Shown one piece after another: positions 21,292 to 44,204 of a stretch of DNA of 64,000 bases. Origin of the DNA: Neisseria sp. (lineage in GTDB: Bacteria; Pseudomonadota; Gammaproteobacteria; Burkholderiales; Neisseriaceae). Under the pieces are notes generated by a model. The model saw nothing but the letters and a program-made list of their open reading frames with translations. It was not told where the DNA came from and did no database searches. A program made the translations under genes and the position numbers. The DNA lies in contig NZ_JAUMUI010000003.1 of assembly GCF_030530745.1 (NCBI RefSeq), forward strand, positions 62,001 to 126,000. The letters are read 5' to 3'. Each line of letters begins with the position of its first letter. Position 1 is the first letter of the stretch.

Positions 21292-21558
21292 ATGCATACC
21301 TTGAAACACAGTGAATTGAACCATGTGTCAGGAGGATTTGCCTTAAACGCAGGAGGCGCTGCCTTAGGAGCATTAGGAGGCGGTATTTCCTATGCTACTT
21401 ATAATTATGCAAGTAACGGCAAATGGAATTGGACTCACTTTGCGGGATCCGTAAGTGGGGGCGCAATGGCTGGTGCTTTAATGAATCCGGTTGCAGTTGC
21501 AACAGTAGGTGCCGCCGCTAACGGAGCAATAGCAGGCACTGCCGCAAGAGCCAAATAA
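21292..21558 (+). CDS. Double-glycine-leader bacteriocin-like peptide
   Basis: An 88-residue precursor with a typical class II leader, MHTLKHSELNHVSGG (15 residues, cut expected after GG). The mature part of about 73 residues is very rich in Gly, Ala and Asn, with glycine-zipper-like spacing (GGAALGALGGG, GGAMAGALMNP, AAANGAIAGTAARAK). The start has AAAGGA 6 bases upstream. The leader matches those of the genes at 39204 and 40955. A hairpin and a small membrane protein follow, as expected for peptide plus immunity. Base composition is more AT-rich than the neighbours. No exporter is nearby. Confidence 0.8.
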   Translation: MHTLKHSELNHVSGGFALNAGGAALGALGGGISYATYNYASNGKWNWTHFAGSVSGGAMAGALMNPVAVATVGAAANGAIAGTAARAK

Positions 21559-21623: not shown

Positions 21624-21881
21624 ATGAATTTTTTATGGAAAATTTTAGCCCCCTCCGATTCGTTTGCACAAAATATGTATGTCGTTTTTTTTATTTTTAT
21701 CGGCATGGTATTTATCATGCCGGCATTTTACCGTCTGTTTGCAGGAATCGAACCTGTTACGGCTATGGGCCGCTTTGCCGTTCCGTTTTTATCACTGCTT
21801 GCAACTATTGCCGTTTCCACCCTGTTTACTTTGTTTTCGGCCAAACTTCATAAACAGAGTAAAAAATGCAAACATGATTAA
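21624..21881 (+). CDS. Small membrane protein, candidate immunity protein
   Basis: An 85-residue protein with two strong hydrophobic segments (about 18-38 and 50-72) and a Lys/His-rich C-terminus (KLHKQSKKCKHD). It follows the bacteriocin-like gene by 65 bp. No family is recognised. Immunity proteins of small membrane-active bacteriocins often look like this, so the role is inferred from size, topology and position only. It is not obviously similar to the membrane proteins at 39583 and 40434. Confidence 0.6.
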   Translation: MNFLWKILAPSDSFAQNMYVVFFIFIGMVFIMPAFYRLFAGIEPVTAMGRFAVPFLSLLATIAVSTLFTLFSAKLHKQSKKCKHD

Positions 21882-38897: not shown

Positions 38898-38943
38898 GAC
38901 AGCTTTCTTTATCTCTTTGCAAACGGGCTTAAAACGGCGGCAG

Positions 38944-39227
38944 AGGCCGCCTGAAAATCTCTCATTATACAGGCAAATACCGGGATATTTTATTGCCGCC
39001 GTGCGGCGGGCGGATATTTCCATGTATTAACCCAAAAACATATTTCTCAAAAAACCCATTCTGATTGCACAAAAATTAACAAAAAAAAAAAAAAAACTAA
39101 AACAAAATTATAAAAACTATATCAATAAAAACGAATCCCACCTATAGAATTCACGCCGACGGCGGAATTCTTGAATTATCAAACTATCATTAGGAGTTTT
39201 ATTATGAGAACTTTAAATGCAAATGAA
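38944..39227 (+). repeat. Duplicated upstream region, copy 1
   Basis: About 284 bp nearly identical to 40692-40978, from a uptake-sequence variant (AGGCCGCCTGAAAA) through the shared first eight codons (MRTLNANE) of the bacteriocin-like genes. It includes the probable trpS promoter on the minus strand, a 16-base poly-A tract and the ribosome-binding site TTAGGAG. Confidence 0.9.
39081..39096 (+). promoter_or_regulatory. Poly-A tract, 16 bases, upstream of bacteriocin-like gene
   Basis: An uninterrupted run of 16 A about 110 bases before the ATG. The corresponding run in the other copy has 18. Runs of this length are prone to slippage and could vary promoter strength. Confidence 0.55.
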
Positions 39228-39500
39228 TTGAACTATGTGTCTGGTGGCTTGGTACTTAATGCTGTTGGTGGTATTGCAGGAGGAATAGGAGGACACTTTG
39301 GGTACCTAGGCGGTGCGATTGCAAGTGGCACATATAACAGAAATGCACATTTGGCAGCAATTGGTGCTGGAGCAATAGGTGGAGCAGTTAACCCGATAAG
39401 AGGCGTTGGCAGTGCCATTGCAACTTTCGGAAGTAGTACTGCGCTGACAGGTGCAACAACCTATATTGGTAATACTGGAACAAGTACCCGTATCAGATAA
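39204..39500 (+). CDS. Double-glycine-leader bacteriocin-like peptide
   Basis: A 98-residue precursor. The start MRTLNANELNYVSGG has TTAGGAG 7 bases upstream; an earlier in-frame start (MNYQTI) lacks such a site. The 15-residue leader ends in GG. The mature part of about 83 residues is Gly/Ala/Ile-rich: GGIAGGIGGHFGYLGGAIASG, then GAGAIGGAVNPIRGVGSAIA, and a polar C-terminal tail TGTSTRIR. It is a relative of the genes at 39840, 40955 and 21292. Promoter, peptide and downstream membrane protein form one unit. AT-rich composition suggests transfer. Confidence 0.8.
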   Translation: MRTLNANELNYVSGGLVLNAVGGIAGGIGGHFGYLGGAIASGTYNRNAHLAAIGAGAIGGAVNPIRGVGSAIATFGSSTALTGATTYIGNTGTSTRIR

Positions 39501-39524
39501 ATACGGTGTTTTCAGTATGTATTA

Positions 39525-39552
39525 GGCATGTTATGGAAAATCATAACATGCC
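39525..39552 (+). terminator. Hairpin after the 39204 gene
   Basis: GGCATGTTATG and CATAACATGCC form an 11-bp perfect stem with a 6-base loop, between the peptide and the membrane protein. It has no U-run, like the hairpin at 21567. Confidence 0.55.
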
Positions 39553-39582
39553 TCCAATTCCATCAAAAACAAATATTTTAAT

Positions 39583-39828
39583 ATGATTATCATGGCTTTT
39601 TTAGCAACTTGCTTTATGCTTTGTTTCGGGTTTGCCAATTATTGCGTCAAAAATAAATTTTATAGGATTGTTTTTTTAATTTTAGGATGGGTGTTGTTCG
39701 GTTTACATTCTTATTTTTTACAAAAAACCATAGATGATTACAACTTCAAGCAAATATCTATTTATTTTTTATACTTGTTTGCCCAGTTGGTTGCTTTTAT
39801 TTTTCTGTTTCGTAAGTTTGACAAATAA
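39583..39828 (+). CDS. Small membrane protein, candidate immunity protein
   Basis: An 81-residue protein with three hydrophobic segments (about 3-18, 29-46 and 58-75). It is clearly a paralogue of the protein at 40434-40670: both share FMLCFGFAN, a KN(K/R)FYRI turn, a GW(V/I) segment and a C-terminal YFLYLF to FLFR(K/R)F tail. Pairing of this type with each bacteriocin-like gene supports an immunity role, which is inference. A second ATG nine bases in is also possible. It ends 11 bases before the truncated peptide gene. Confidence 0.65.
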   Translation: MIIMAFLATCFMLCFGFANYCVKNKFYRIVFLILGWVLFGLHSYFLQKTIDDYNFKQISIYFLYLFAQLVAFIFLFRKFDK

Positions 39829-39839
39829 CCTGCTTCGTT

Positions 39840-40094
39840 GTGTACAATGAAATCCAAAATGTATCCGGCGGCTGGGTTGTCGCACATGCTGCAGGAGCTG
39901 TATTGGGAGGTTATGCCAGTGGATACGGCTATTTGGCCGGCGGCGGTAAAGATCCTGATGGATTTCGCAATGCCGTTATTGCAGGGGCAGCGGGAGGAGC
40001 ACTCAGTCCTGTGAGAGGCATTGCATCCGGTGCTACTGCAATTGCCAGCGGAATAGTCAGTGGGGCTGTAAATACACACCTGTCAAAAAATTAG
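39840..40094 (+). CDS. Bacteriocin-like peptide with truncated leader (possible silent cassette)
   Basis: An 84-residue frame that can only start at GTG: V/MYNEIQNVSGG. The leader lacks the MRTLNA part found in its relatives, and homology to the 40955 gene begins abruptly at AATGAAATCCA. No ribosome-binding site or duplicated promoter precedes it. The mature part (WVVAHAAGAVLGGYASGYGYLAGGGKDP onward in sense) is the closest relative of the 40955 peptide, sharing GYGYLAGGGKDP and SPV. It may be read by coupling to the preceding gene or be a donor cassette. A membrane protein follows. Confidence 0.65.
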   Translation: MYNEIQNVSGGWVVAHAAGAVLGGYASGYGYLAGGGKDPDGFRNAVIAGAAGGALSPVRGIASGATAIASGIVSGAVNTHLSKN

Positions 40095-40103
40095 GATACA
40101 AGT

Positions 40104-40313
40104 ATGTGGGATATGCTATATGAACCTTTATTTATCGGCCTAAGCATATTACAGATGATTCTATTTGGAGCAATAGTACTTGGCCTTTATATTTTTTATA
40201 TTTTTGTCATGAAGCGTATCCATCATAATTTACTGCTTACATTTTTAGCACAAACTGGAGCAGCCATTATCGTCGGCTATCTAGTTTCTAAAATTTTTAA
40301 TATTCATCATTAA
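40104..40313 (+). CDS. Small membrane protein, candidate immunity protein
   Basis: A 69-residue protein with two hydrophobic segments (about 10-35 and 43-62) and basic residues between (MKRIHHN). It starts 9 bp after the 39840 gene with AGGAT as ribosome-binding site, so the two are tightly linked. It does not resemble the 39583/40434 pair, so different peptides may have different partners. The role is inferred from position. Confidence 0.6.
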   Translation: MWDMLYEPLFIGLSILQMILFGAIVLGLYIFYIFVMKRIHHNLLLTFLAQTGAAIIVGYLVSKIFNIHH

Positions 40314-40329
40314 CTGAATATCTAAAAAT

Positions 40330-40360
40330 AACACTGCCTGTAAATTTTACAGGCAGTGTT
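40330..40360 (+). terminator. Hairpin after the 40104 gene
   Basis: AACACTGCCTGTAAA and TACAGGCAGTGTT form a stem of about 13 bp ending in CTTAT. It is probably a terminator. Confidence 0.7.
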
Positions 40361-40433
40361 CTTATAACTAAAATGCTGCTTTAATGCCGTTTGAAACTTA
40401 ATTTATGCCGATTGGCCTCCAATGGGAGGAAGA

Positions 40434-40670
40434 ATGCTTTATTATGCAGCAATATTGGCTACAGCTTTTATGCTTTGCTTCGGATTTGCCAACCATATAA
40501 TCAAAAACAGGTTTTATAGAATAACCTGTTTGATTTCCGGTTGGATTATTTTCACTTTTCATCAGTATGTCATAATAAATAACATAGAACATGTTCCGGG
40601 CCGTTATTTTTTATACTTATTCACACAGGCCGTTATCCTTGTTTTTCTGTTCCGAAGATTTTCAAAATAA
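40434..40670 (+). CDS. Small membrane protein, paralogue of the 39583 protein
   Basis: A 78-residue protein with three hydrophobic segments. The start MLYYAAIL is chosen because GGGAGGA lies 4 bases upstream. It shares FMLCFGFAN, KNRFYRI and YFLYLFTQ with the protein at 39583-39828. It has no peptide gene directly upstream (the preceding gene encodes the 40104 membrane protein), so it looks like an orphan immunity gene left by rearrangement, or the partner of a lost peptide. It ends 21 bp before the second duplicated region. Confidence 0.65.
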   Translation: MLYYAAILATAFMLCFGFANHIIKNRFYRITCLISGWIIFTFHQYVIINNIEHVPGRYFLYLFTQAVILVFLFRRFSK

Positions 40671-40691
40671 TCATCTTTTTAAAACCGGTAC

Positions 40692-40978
40692 AGGCCGCCT
40701 GAAAACCCCTGCATTATACAGGCAAATACCGGGATATTTTATTGCCGCCGTACGTCGGGCGGATATTTCCATGTATTAGCTCAAAAACATATTTCTCAAA
40801 TAATCCATTCCGATCGCACAAAAATTAACAAAAAAAAAAAAAAAAAACTAAAACAAAATTATAAAAACTATATCAATAAAAACGAATCCCACCTATAGAA
40901 TTCACGCCGACGGCGGAGTTCTTGATTTATCAAACTATCATTAGGAGTTTTATTATGAGAACTTTAAATGCAAATGAA
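40692..40978 (+). repeat. Duplicated upstream region, copy 2
   Basis: Nearly identical to 38944-39227, including a relic of the trpS promoter (ATTATA at 40713-40718, pointing left at nothing), the poly-A tract and the ribosome-binding site. Because trpS itself lies beside copy 1, copy 2 was probably derived from copy 1. Confidence 0.9.
40830..40847 (+). promoter_or_regulatory. Poly-A tract, 18 bases, upstream of bacteriocin-like gene
   Basis: A run of 18 A where the duplicate has 16. The flanking bases are otherwise the same (TTAAC before, CTAAAAC after). Confidence 0.55.
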
Positions 40979-41224
40979 ATCCAACATGTATCCGGCGGCT
41001 GGGTTGCCAATGCGTTAGGTGCGGCAGCAGGAGCATACGGAGCCGGATACGGCTATCTTGCCGGAGGCGGCAAAGATCCCAATAGATTTTTAGGAGCCGT
41101 AGCACTGGGGGGGCTTACTGGCGCAGCAAGTCCTGTGAACGGTATTCGTTCTGCCGCAAAGACAGCAGCTGTCTCATTCGGAGGTAGTGCCGCCACCACT
41201 GCAATTGGAAGTCCTTATTTTTAA
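40955..41224 (+). CDS. Double-glycine-leader bacteriocin-like peptide
   Basis: An 89-residue precursor with leader MRTLNANEIQHVSGG and TTAGGAG 7 bases upstream. The mature part of about 74 residues is Gly/Ala-rich with an aromatic/Gly block (GAYGAGYGYLAGGGKDP), then GGLTGAASPVNGI and a C-terminal GSAATTAIGSPYF. The first 24 bases are identical to those of the 39204 gene, while the rest is closer to the 39840 gene, so the leader and mature parts have different histories. A 52-residue hydrophobic gene follows after 4 bases. Confidence 0.8.
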   Translation: MRTLNANEIQHVSGGWVANALGAAAGAYGAGYGYLAGGGKDPNRFLGAVALGGLTGAASPVNGIRSAAKTAAVSFGGSAATTAIGSPYF

Positions 41225-41228
41225 ATAA

Positions 41229-41387
41229 ATGAAAAAAGATTTTCTATTCTTTTTTGTTATTCTATTATCATTTATTACCATAATAATAGGGTTAAAATAC
41301 TTGTTTCCTGATAGAGATATGTTTTACTGGCAGCTAGGAACAAGCTTAACTGCTGCAGTTCTTATCCGAAAACTGTTCAAATATTAA
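41229..41387 (+). CDS. Very small membrane protein (52 aa), candidate immunity protein
   Basis: MKKDFLFFFVILLSF starts a frame of 52 residues with one long hydrophobic segment (about 5-25), a polar turn (FPDRDM), and a second weaker one (about 33-48) ending LIRKLFKY. The ATG lies 4 bases after the stop of the 40955 gene, which implies translational coupling. No family is recognised. Position repeats the peptide-then-membrane-protein pattern. Confidence 0.6.
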   Translation: MKKDFLFFFVILLSFITIIIGLKYLFPDRDMFYWQLGTSLTAAVLIRKLFKY

Positions 41388-41424: not shown

Positions 41425-41562
41425 CTGCTTTCCGCTTCGGCCTACTTATTTTTCAGACGGCCTCAAACAAGCACTCAACCCGAACTTACCCACAAACTAA
41501 ATAAAATAATCAAACAAAAACAGAATATTGAATAAAACAGCTGCAATAAAAAGCAGTTTTTT

Positions 41563-41630: not shown

Positions 41631-44204
<2,574 letters not shown>

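Follow-up and report, generated by a model that had tools for sequence, protein, structure and literature searches.

A candidate expression site and archive for bacteriocin-like cassettes between trpS and clpB in Neisseria sp.

In a 64,000-nucleotide stretch of the Neisseria sp. assembly GCF_030530745.1 (contig NZ_JAUMUI010000003.1, positions 62,001 to 126,000; hereafter the window, to which coordinates refer unless a contig is named), seven small plus-strand genes lie between trpS, on the minus strand with its start near 38898, and clpB, at 41631. Three of them (b1, b2 and b3) encode Gly/Ala-rich peptides and four encode small membrane proteins, in the order b1, imm1, b2, imm2, imm1', b3, imm3. 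We regard the cluster as probably a site where class II microcin-like bacteriocins are expressed and a small archive of them is kept. In this view cassettes of a core (the mature toxin) and its immunity gene are exchanged at the leader, b2 being a stored copy. A sequence-only reading of the same DNA had proposed three genes for Gly/Ala-rich peptides with a leader, whole or partial, ending in VSGG, each followed by a short hydrophobic protein. All three peptide genes stand at the coordinates below, b2 with part of a leader, and a membrane protein follows each, but the fourth membrane protein, at 40422-40670, has no peptide of its own.

Proposed cassette exchange and the duplicated upstream unit

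The genes are listed here; C codes denote contigs of this genome and G codes other genomes of the genus.

39204..39500, plus strand: b1, double-glycine precursor with leader MRTLNANELNYVSGG and 83-residue core; a similar core (82%) with another leader lies at C32:13468-13734
39583..39828, plus strand: imm1, 81-residue membrane protein, predicted immunity to b1; three predicted membrane segments; 37% relative behind the b1-type core on C32
39840..40094, plus strand: b2, headless precursor with GTG start, nine remaining leader residues and no promoter copy, predicted silent cassette; homology to b3 begins within the leader at 39846
40104..40313, plus strand: imm2, 69-residue membrane protein, predicted immunity to b2; relative behind a b2-type core in G008 (38%) and, as two pieces, in G044
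40422..40670, plus strand: imm1', orphan immunity-type gene, paralogue of imm1 (53% by tblastn)
40955..41224, plus strand: b3, double-glycine precursor with leader MRTLNANEIQHVSGG and 74-residue core; relatives in G008, G021, G043 (two loci) and G044
41229..41387, plus strand: imm3, 52-residue membrane protein, predicted immunity to b3; relative behind a b3-type core at all five other intact genus loci examined and behind a deleted core in G022

The two precursors with complete leaders, b1 and b3, are each preceded by a copy of one unit of about 325 bp, and the homology between the copies ends right after the Gly-Gly codons.

38929..39253, plus strand: promoter/leader unit copy 1 (trpS 5' flank, poly-A, hairpin, ribosome-binding site, b1 leader), 91.5% identical to 40679-41004
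40679..41004, plus strand: promoter/leader unit copy 2, before b3, 91.5% identical to copy 1
39081..39096, plus strand: poly-A tract of 16, which may be a phase-variable or curved element of the promoter
40830..40847, plus strand: poly-A tract of 18, copy 2
39146..39171, plus strand: predicted hairpin upstream of b1 (if transcribed); stretch 39140-39215 has a folding z-score of -2.8
40897..40922, plus strand: predicted hairpin copy 2, one stem pair changed from A-U to G-U; stretch 40890-40966 has a folding z-score of -3.2

Three comparisons bear on what has moved. Between b1 and b3 the 150 bp upstream agree by 95% and the leaders by 80%, against 39% for the cores and 27% for the immunity proteins. 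Between b3 and the gene at the same site in N. weixii the core agrees by 97% and the immunity protein by 87%, against 60% for the leader and 57% upstream. For b1 and the C32 precursor the values are 82% (core), 37% (immunity), 60% (leader) and 46% (upstream). At the DNA level b3 and its N. weixii counterpart are 55% identical over the upstream 100 bp, 69% in the leader, 96% in the core and 91% in the immunity gene, then 74% over the next 50 bp and 41% over the following 100 bp; the N. weixii trpS reads in two frames, and that record may contain sequence errors. Thus b1 and b3 have the same upstream DNA and leader with another toxin, and b3 and the N. weixii gene have the same toxin and immunity gene with another leader, which suggests that the moving unit is the mature toxin with its immunity gene and that the double-glycine leader is the joint. 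The sequences show core and downstream membrane-protein gene staying together across loci, with the pair switching upstream region and leader at the leader codons.

The same pattern is seen across 17 precursors: core similarity is tracked best by that of the immunity protein (Mantel r 0.72, p 0.0002), with a weaker correlation to leader similarity (r 0.36, p 0.0004) and the weakest to upstream DNA (r 0.19, p 0.037), all three being nominally significant. Outside this set stand b2, which has no full leader, C32_15580, C50_8271 and the C38 and C40 peptides, together with the broken, truncated or frameshifted loci L024, L028, L032, L033, L037 and L039 and the precursors of exporter or C39-peptidase islands (L019, L021-L023, L030, L034, L040, L042 and others in L050-L056). 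The leader of G008_935 is one residue short in the comparison, and the pairing of C29 10198 is looser than elsewhere, its MANK-type gene beginning 358 bp downstream.

If core and immunity gene move as a unit, b2 is by appearance a headless stored cassette and 40422-40670 an orphan immunity gene. What remains of the b2 leader, NEIQNVSGG, follows the GTG without a visible ribosome-binding site; 26 of its 27 bases match b3, as against 43% over the 60 bp upstream. At the trpS-clpB site of G044 a b2-type core has a full leader, although the toxin is broken by stop codons, and the genes run in the order b2, imm2 and imm1 types, as they do downstream of b1/imm1 in the window. This order fits an insertion of b1 and imm1 between an old leader and b2, and we infer that such an insertion left b2 headless.

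The proposed mechanism would run as follows. An incoming cassette of core and immunity gene, probably acquired by natural transformation, would recombine at the leader and thereby be placed after the promoter and leader already there. The cassette that stood there before would be displaced downstream and lose the promoter and most of its own leader, as in b2, but may keep its immunity genes (imm2, imm1'). Cleavage of the b1 and b3 precursors after Gly-Gly, and their export, would fall to a C39 ATP-binding cassette (ABC) exporter acting in trans, and close relatives without the paired immunity protein would have their membrane damaged by the Gly-rich core. A wider scheme, about which we have more doubt than conviction, would make the leader the recombination joint of a combinatorial system, with a shared pool of cores and immunity genes, headless stores, re-arming at the leader codons, tuning by poly-A slippage, and exporter-less strains as armed but muted archives that become killers on gaining an exporter by transformation.

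Double-glycine leaders have hydrophobic residues at positions -12, -7 and -4 and GG or GA at -2/-1. The leaders of b1 and b3, 15 residues ending in VSGG, have L at -12, L or I at -7, V at -4 and the final GG; in b2 position -12 and all beyond it are gone. An AGGAG ribosome-binding site is kept before b1 and b3, with the whole upstream unit. The leader motif occurs in three open reading frames of at least 50 residues in the window, the third being a further precursor at 21292-21558, and once in total in 20 second-order Markov copies of the window, a post hoc control since the motif was derived from these same genes. The mature cores of b1, b2 and b3 have 83, 73 and 74 residues, are 41-47% Gly plus Ala and are slightly cationic, and a simple hydropathy scan predicts three, two, two and one membrane segments for imm1, imm2, imm1' and imm3. 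For b3 the predicted structure is mostly helix (mean predicted local distance difference test score, pLDDT, 54; predicted template modelling score, pTM, 0.36) and too poor for a fold search.

A search of the genome with the non-coding part of the upstream unit recovers the two cluster copies and, over the poly-A part, a single match of 27 bases, which rules out a genome-wide repeat. The poly-A tracts are the only two homopolymer runs of the 64-kb window at thresholds of 11 or more for A/T and 9 or more for G/C; they may switch expression, although their lengths derive from the assembly and may be miscounted. Folding z-scores are relative to dinucleotide shuffles. A Sigma-70 scan found fewer sites (7) than expected (10.0) and is not used to claim a promoter; "promoter" here means the shared upstream DNA. 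Three sequences that we take to have a role in DNA uptake also lie at the cluster, but such sites are not enriched there, because the window holds 64 AGGCCGYCTGAA sites.

38944..38955, plus strand: DNA-uptake-like sequence AGGCCGCCTGAA beside unit copy 1
40692..40703, plus strand: DNA-uptake-like sequence beside unit copy 2
41452..41463, minus strand: DNA-uptake-like sequence between imm3 and clpB

Relatives in the genus and further precursors in the genome

Acquisition between housekeeping genes, already suspected from base composition, is supported by the site itself. The G+C content is 34-43% inside the cluster and 52-62% in the adjoining DNA, and the trpS-clpB site is occupied in only 4 of 28 genomes (gaps of 2716 bp here, 2150 in N. 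weixii, 1419 in G044 and 774 in G022), the other 24 having a gap of 246-406 bp without a cassette. This survey searched 47 genus genomes, of which 46 had a clpB match and 28 had trpS inside the stretch read; among the remaining 18, G021 has a b3/imm3 pair adjoining clpB. In G022 the toxin has an internal deletion and the imm3-type gene is intact. The sequence-only reading had also suggested a search of other Neisseria genomes, and relatives were found, the peptide profile matching 11 of the 47.

The core types keep their partners at these loci. A b3-type core with an imm3-type gene occurs in N. weixii at the trpS-clpB site and a second site, beside transport genes in G044 and G008, and beside clpB in G021. 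The b2-type core of G008 has a full leader and an imm2-type gene (core 71%, immunity 38%), and the b1-type core on C32, with other leader and upstream DNA, has an imm1-type gene behind it. A further core type beginning FGP pairs with a "MANK"-type membrane protein on C32, loosely on C29, in G006 and in G044, where the core is truncated. From this adjacency and the pairing of core and membrane gene across loci and species we infer that these genes are class II microcin-like toxin/immunity pairs, which supports the original view of bacteriocin-like peptides with fitting immunity proteins. At L017, L018 and L026, in three genomes, the b3-type cassettes have as neighbour a gene for an outer-membrane lipoprotein or one of ABC type, and this looks like a second site preferred for insertion.

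Besides b2, the genome carries at least twelve intact double-glycine precursors, not all of one core family, at seven loci: trpS-clpB (b1, b3), window 21292 (one), C32 (three), C29 (two), C50 (two), C38 (one) and C40 (one). This count is a lower bound, since reading by place covered about half of the genome (805 kb, partly twice, plus 287 kb) and profile search alone covered the rest. The original interpretation is thus supported for the peptides, the membrane proteins and their acquisition, but it missed the leader exchange, the orphan immunity gene, how far expression of b2 is cut off, and the further loci, of which there are at least six. The pair elsewhere in the window lies downstream of a purM-like gene (gene names by eye, here and for C32 below).

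21292..21558, plus strand: further double-glycine precursor of the same family, with leader MHTLKHSELNHVSGG
21624..21881, plus strand: 85-residue membrane protein, predicted immunity, after the 21292-21558 precursor

A second and larger array lies on C32 (L006, 12000-15700), with a mechanosensitive-channel-like gene at one end and nitrate-transporter-like genes at the other. It holds three precursors, upstream/leader units that recur, and a single MANK immunity-type family present in several copies as well as fragments.

Purifying selection on the cores is suggested by the ratio of nonsynonymous to synonymous divergence (dN/dS), which is 0.04-0.19 in six comparisons (a seventh is undefined); dS is above 1.2 in four of the six, so that those values are rough. 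Comparison with bacteriocin models, another check proposed from the sequence, gave similarity but no curated hit: TIGR03949 matches eight of ten aligned family members at E <=0.1 (best E 0.0003), b3 reaching 19.0 bits against a cut-off of 21.5, and a C29 peptide scores 24.6 with PF10439 against a cut-off of 27.1. Other precursors of the genome match Bacteriocin_IIc and MccV under cut-off; PF10439 has no match above cut-off in the genome, and b1 and b2 match no bacteriocin model at E <=1. No PADLOC defence model matched among five proteins. Phage origin was considered and rejected: the family alignment, run against viral contigs as one leader-based pattern only, matched two stretches, neither a confirmed relative.

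Export and competing explanations

Why has the assembly yielded no leader peptidase when the genome carries at least twelve double-glycine precursors? The expectation that a C39-peptidase exporter and adaptor would be encoded elsewhere in the genome found no support: PF03412 has no match in the assembly (2.28 Mb, 53 contigs, 99.76% complete), and with the C39 exporter of a relative as query the matches are confined to other ABC proteins, whose alignments leave out the first 170 residues of the query. The adaptor of G006 gives two matches, the best in a repeats-in-toxin (RTX)-type type I system on C35 and a weak one on C47. Contig C35 (L070, 48-2942 and 5244-10039) encodes a large RTX-repeat-like protein and a complete type I secretion set. 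Its exporter was considered as leader peptidase and thought unlikely, having no cysteine before residue 118.

Carriers elsewhere in the genus are mostly equipped. PF03412 is found in 20 of the 47 genomes, and a C39 peptidase of any kind in all ten other peptide-positive genomes as against 10 of 36 peptide-negative ones (Fisher p 0.0003, own genome included), a test that is partly circular because some peptide matches adjoin an exporter or C39 peptidase. Seven genomes, the present one with G006, G008, G021, G022, G043 and G044, have cassettes away from an exporter. A C39 ABC exporter is present in five of the seven, as against 8 of the 40 others (Fisher p 0.012; C39 frames of at least 476 residues counted, G020 with 463 left out). 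Its absence from every carrier strain, the outcome named in advance as refuting the bacteriocin interpretation, is thus not what is seen.

The exporter island of G011 and G021 has a TolC-like and an nrdR-like gene at its end. Neither protein of G021 has a match in the present genome (nrdR-like at E 1e-5); the absence of nrdR is odd, so an assembly gap may lie just there, and the nrdR-like gene is either truly lost or in such a gap. The gene on the other side of the G021 island, ponA, is present. A position behind it, as in G021, was rejected for the exporter, the gene being followed here by a small gene and an mnmG-like gene (names by eye). With no exporter found in the assembly, the strain is most likely a non-producer that keeps immunity and a toxin reserve, unless its exporter falls in an assembly gap.

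Several points weigh against an expression site with exchangeable cassettes. The assembly contains neither a C39 peptidase nor a relative of the island's TolC-like protein, and two of the seven carriers, this strain and N. weixii, are without the expected C39 ABC exporter; N. weixii, whose genome is listed as 85% complete, has one C39 frame of 220 residues, which is of periplasmic type and beside Sec-type precursors. No bacteriocin model passed its cut-off in the scans showing one (in the TIGR03949 family scan a cut-off is shown for b3 only), and the phage holin model PF16083 matches C32:14189-14458 and window 21292-21558 at E 1e-4 and 0.004, under cut-off. Exchange is not free, since leader similarity is significantly correlated with the core, as given above, and with the immunity protein (r 0.46). 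The precursors C29:10198 and C32:14458 share 100% of the leader and 88% upstream with only 66% in the core, as plain array duplication would give. Recombination is read here from present-day sequences with one genome per species. In G044 imm2 is likewise in two pieces, so that decay there goes beyond the toxin. Finally, the closest studied Neisseria peptides, the gonococcal Naps, had no detectable antibacterial activity in the available part of the report on them (PMC11798529).

Some of these points would be met by a degenerating remnant, its exporter island lost or never arrived, in which the cluster is only an immunity island or in plain decay and the toxins are passengers. The lack of a C39 peptidase and of a TolC-like island relative, an adaptor query that returns only the RTX-type adaptor and the weak C47 match, the dead toxins beside a kept immunity-type gene in G044 and G022, and the headless b2 all agree with this. 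We nevertheless think it unlikely, because intact reading frames are found for b1, b3 and ten further precursors in the genome, the complete upstream unit including AGGAG is retained before both b1 and b3, and the low dN/dS of the cores argues for selection, even if that selection may date from earlier hosts. It is more improbable still that the peptides act in autolysis or signalling and not as weapons. Gonococcal Naps and meningococcal double-glycine peptides share genus and leader type, and, in the available text of each paper, Naps promoted autolysis and were not antibacterial (PMC11798529), and a pheromone role was proposed alongside a bacteriocin role (PMC2784325). However, toxin/immunity pairs account better for the conserved pairing of core and membrane gene, for immunity-type genes kept beside dead toxins and for many diverged core types in one genome, and mature Naps have 16-36 residues (PMC11798529, available part) against 73-83 in the cores here.

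Least probable by far is export by another route, through the C35 exporter, another ABC protein or an unrecognised peptidase. C35 does encode an exporter, an adaptor and an outer-membrane channel-like protein, and two further ABC exporter-sized frames (C44, C43) give matches of 28-31%. Against this, PF03412 matches nothing in the genome and the first cysteine of the C35 exporter is only at residue 118; on the background of C39-like domains, a Gly-Gly cut is therefore not expected from it.

Known systems and relatives outside the genus

Microcin V is what we take as the class II microcin for comparison. The cluster differs from such microcins in having several pairs of core and immunity gene, of which two follow copies of the same promoter and leader, and in its headless cassette. 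The McbC system of Moraxella catarrhalis likewise has a Gly-Gly leader, a small peptide and a short immunity gene directly downstream, but McbC lies beside its secretion genes and kills (PMC2761928; this and the following papers are cited from the part of each that was available), whereas the present cluster is unlinked to an exporter and predicted from sequence.

In N. meningitidis, double-glycine peptides occur with C39 ABC units (PMC2784325), and these and the bacteriocin islands BGI-1/BGI-2 (PMC8627216) share with our cluster the genus, the leader type and Gly-rich peptides. Their C39 ABC, adaptor and TolC-like machinery is of the type expected for the cassettes here. In contrast to the present strain, meningococcal strain 8013 has complete secretion units and two other strains remnants only, and the available text of both papers does not describe cassette exchange at the leader. 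The gonococcal nap island (PMC11798529) is also a low-GC acquired Neisseria island with GG peptides and proposed homopolymer phase variation; it differs in its C39 peptidase and FapF-like protein, autolysis role and shorter mature peptides, and in having the homopolymer tract inside the gene and not upstream of it. No nap-type flanking gene (NapP or NapF) is in the cluster and PF03412 has no match in the genome, in which no search for NapF was made.

There are precedents for the parts, in available text, in silent mafB-CT cassettes and in leader-end recombination in blpN. The MafB cassettes of Neisseria combine toxin part and immunity gene, some without a start codon, and are exchanged behind a conserved 5' part (PMC4287609), but MafB swaps the C-terminal part of a longer toxin, whereas here a 15-codon leader is shared and the whole mature toxin swapped. 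With precursors of 84-98 residues and a shared part of 15, the cluster was rejected as a MafB-type polymorphic toxin; it would work alike without being a member. The pneumococcal blp locus has double-glycine bacteriocins with immunity genes in a naturally transformable host, and blpN variants have the first 12 residues recombined with blpM and blpK (PMC4860687). It is, however, one regulated operon with its own exporter genes in a Gram-positive host, and its bacteriocin-immunity pairing is loose, where ours looks tight. A literature search that reached few subscription papers or bioRxiv preprints found no description of a cassette system of this kind. If the proposal is true, small peptide bacteriocins, besides long polymorphic toxins, would be kept as exchangeable cassettes with silent copies, and the exchange point (the leader codons) and the membrane protein protecting against each peptide would be predictable.

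Outside the genus, a collection scan found three relatives, in Erwinia typographi, Marinospirillum minutulum and a Pseudomonadaceae metagenome-assembled genome. In Erwinia typographi the leader, MRILNSNEIQHVSGG, is near-identical and the core a different one. In the other two a b3 relative (51% over 81 residues) stands behind a Sec-type signal and a KSTEG site and adjoins a periplasmic-type C39 peptidase; that a b3-like core is joined there to another type of leader is consistent with cores being modular, over a greater distance. A periplasmic-type C39 peptidase beside precursors with a Sec signal and KETEG/KSTEG site is found in N. weixii, G044, G040, Marinospirillum and the Pseudomonadaceae genome (L050 5474-9526, L052 4565-7339, L055 6838-9062, L046 83-1424 and L047 4956-7216). 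Some of these loci have an outer-membrane-like protein too, and they resemble the nap/Fap arrangement.

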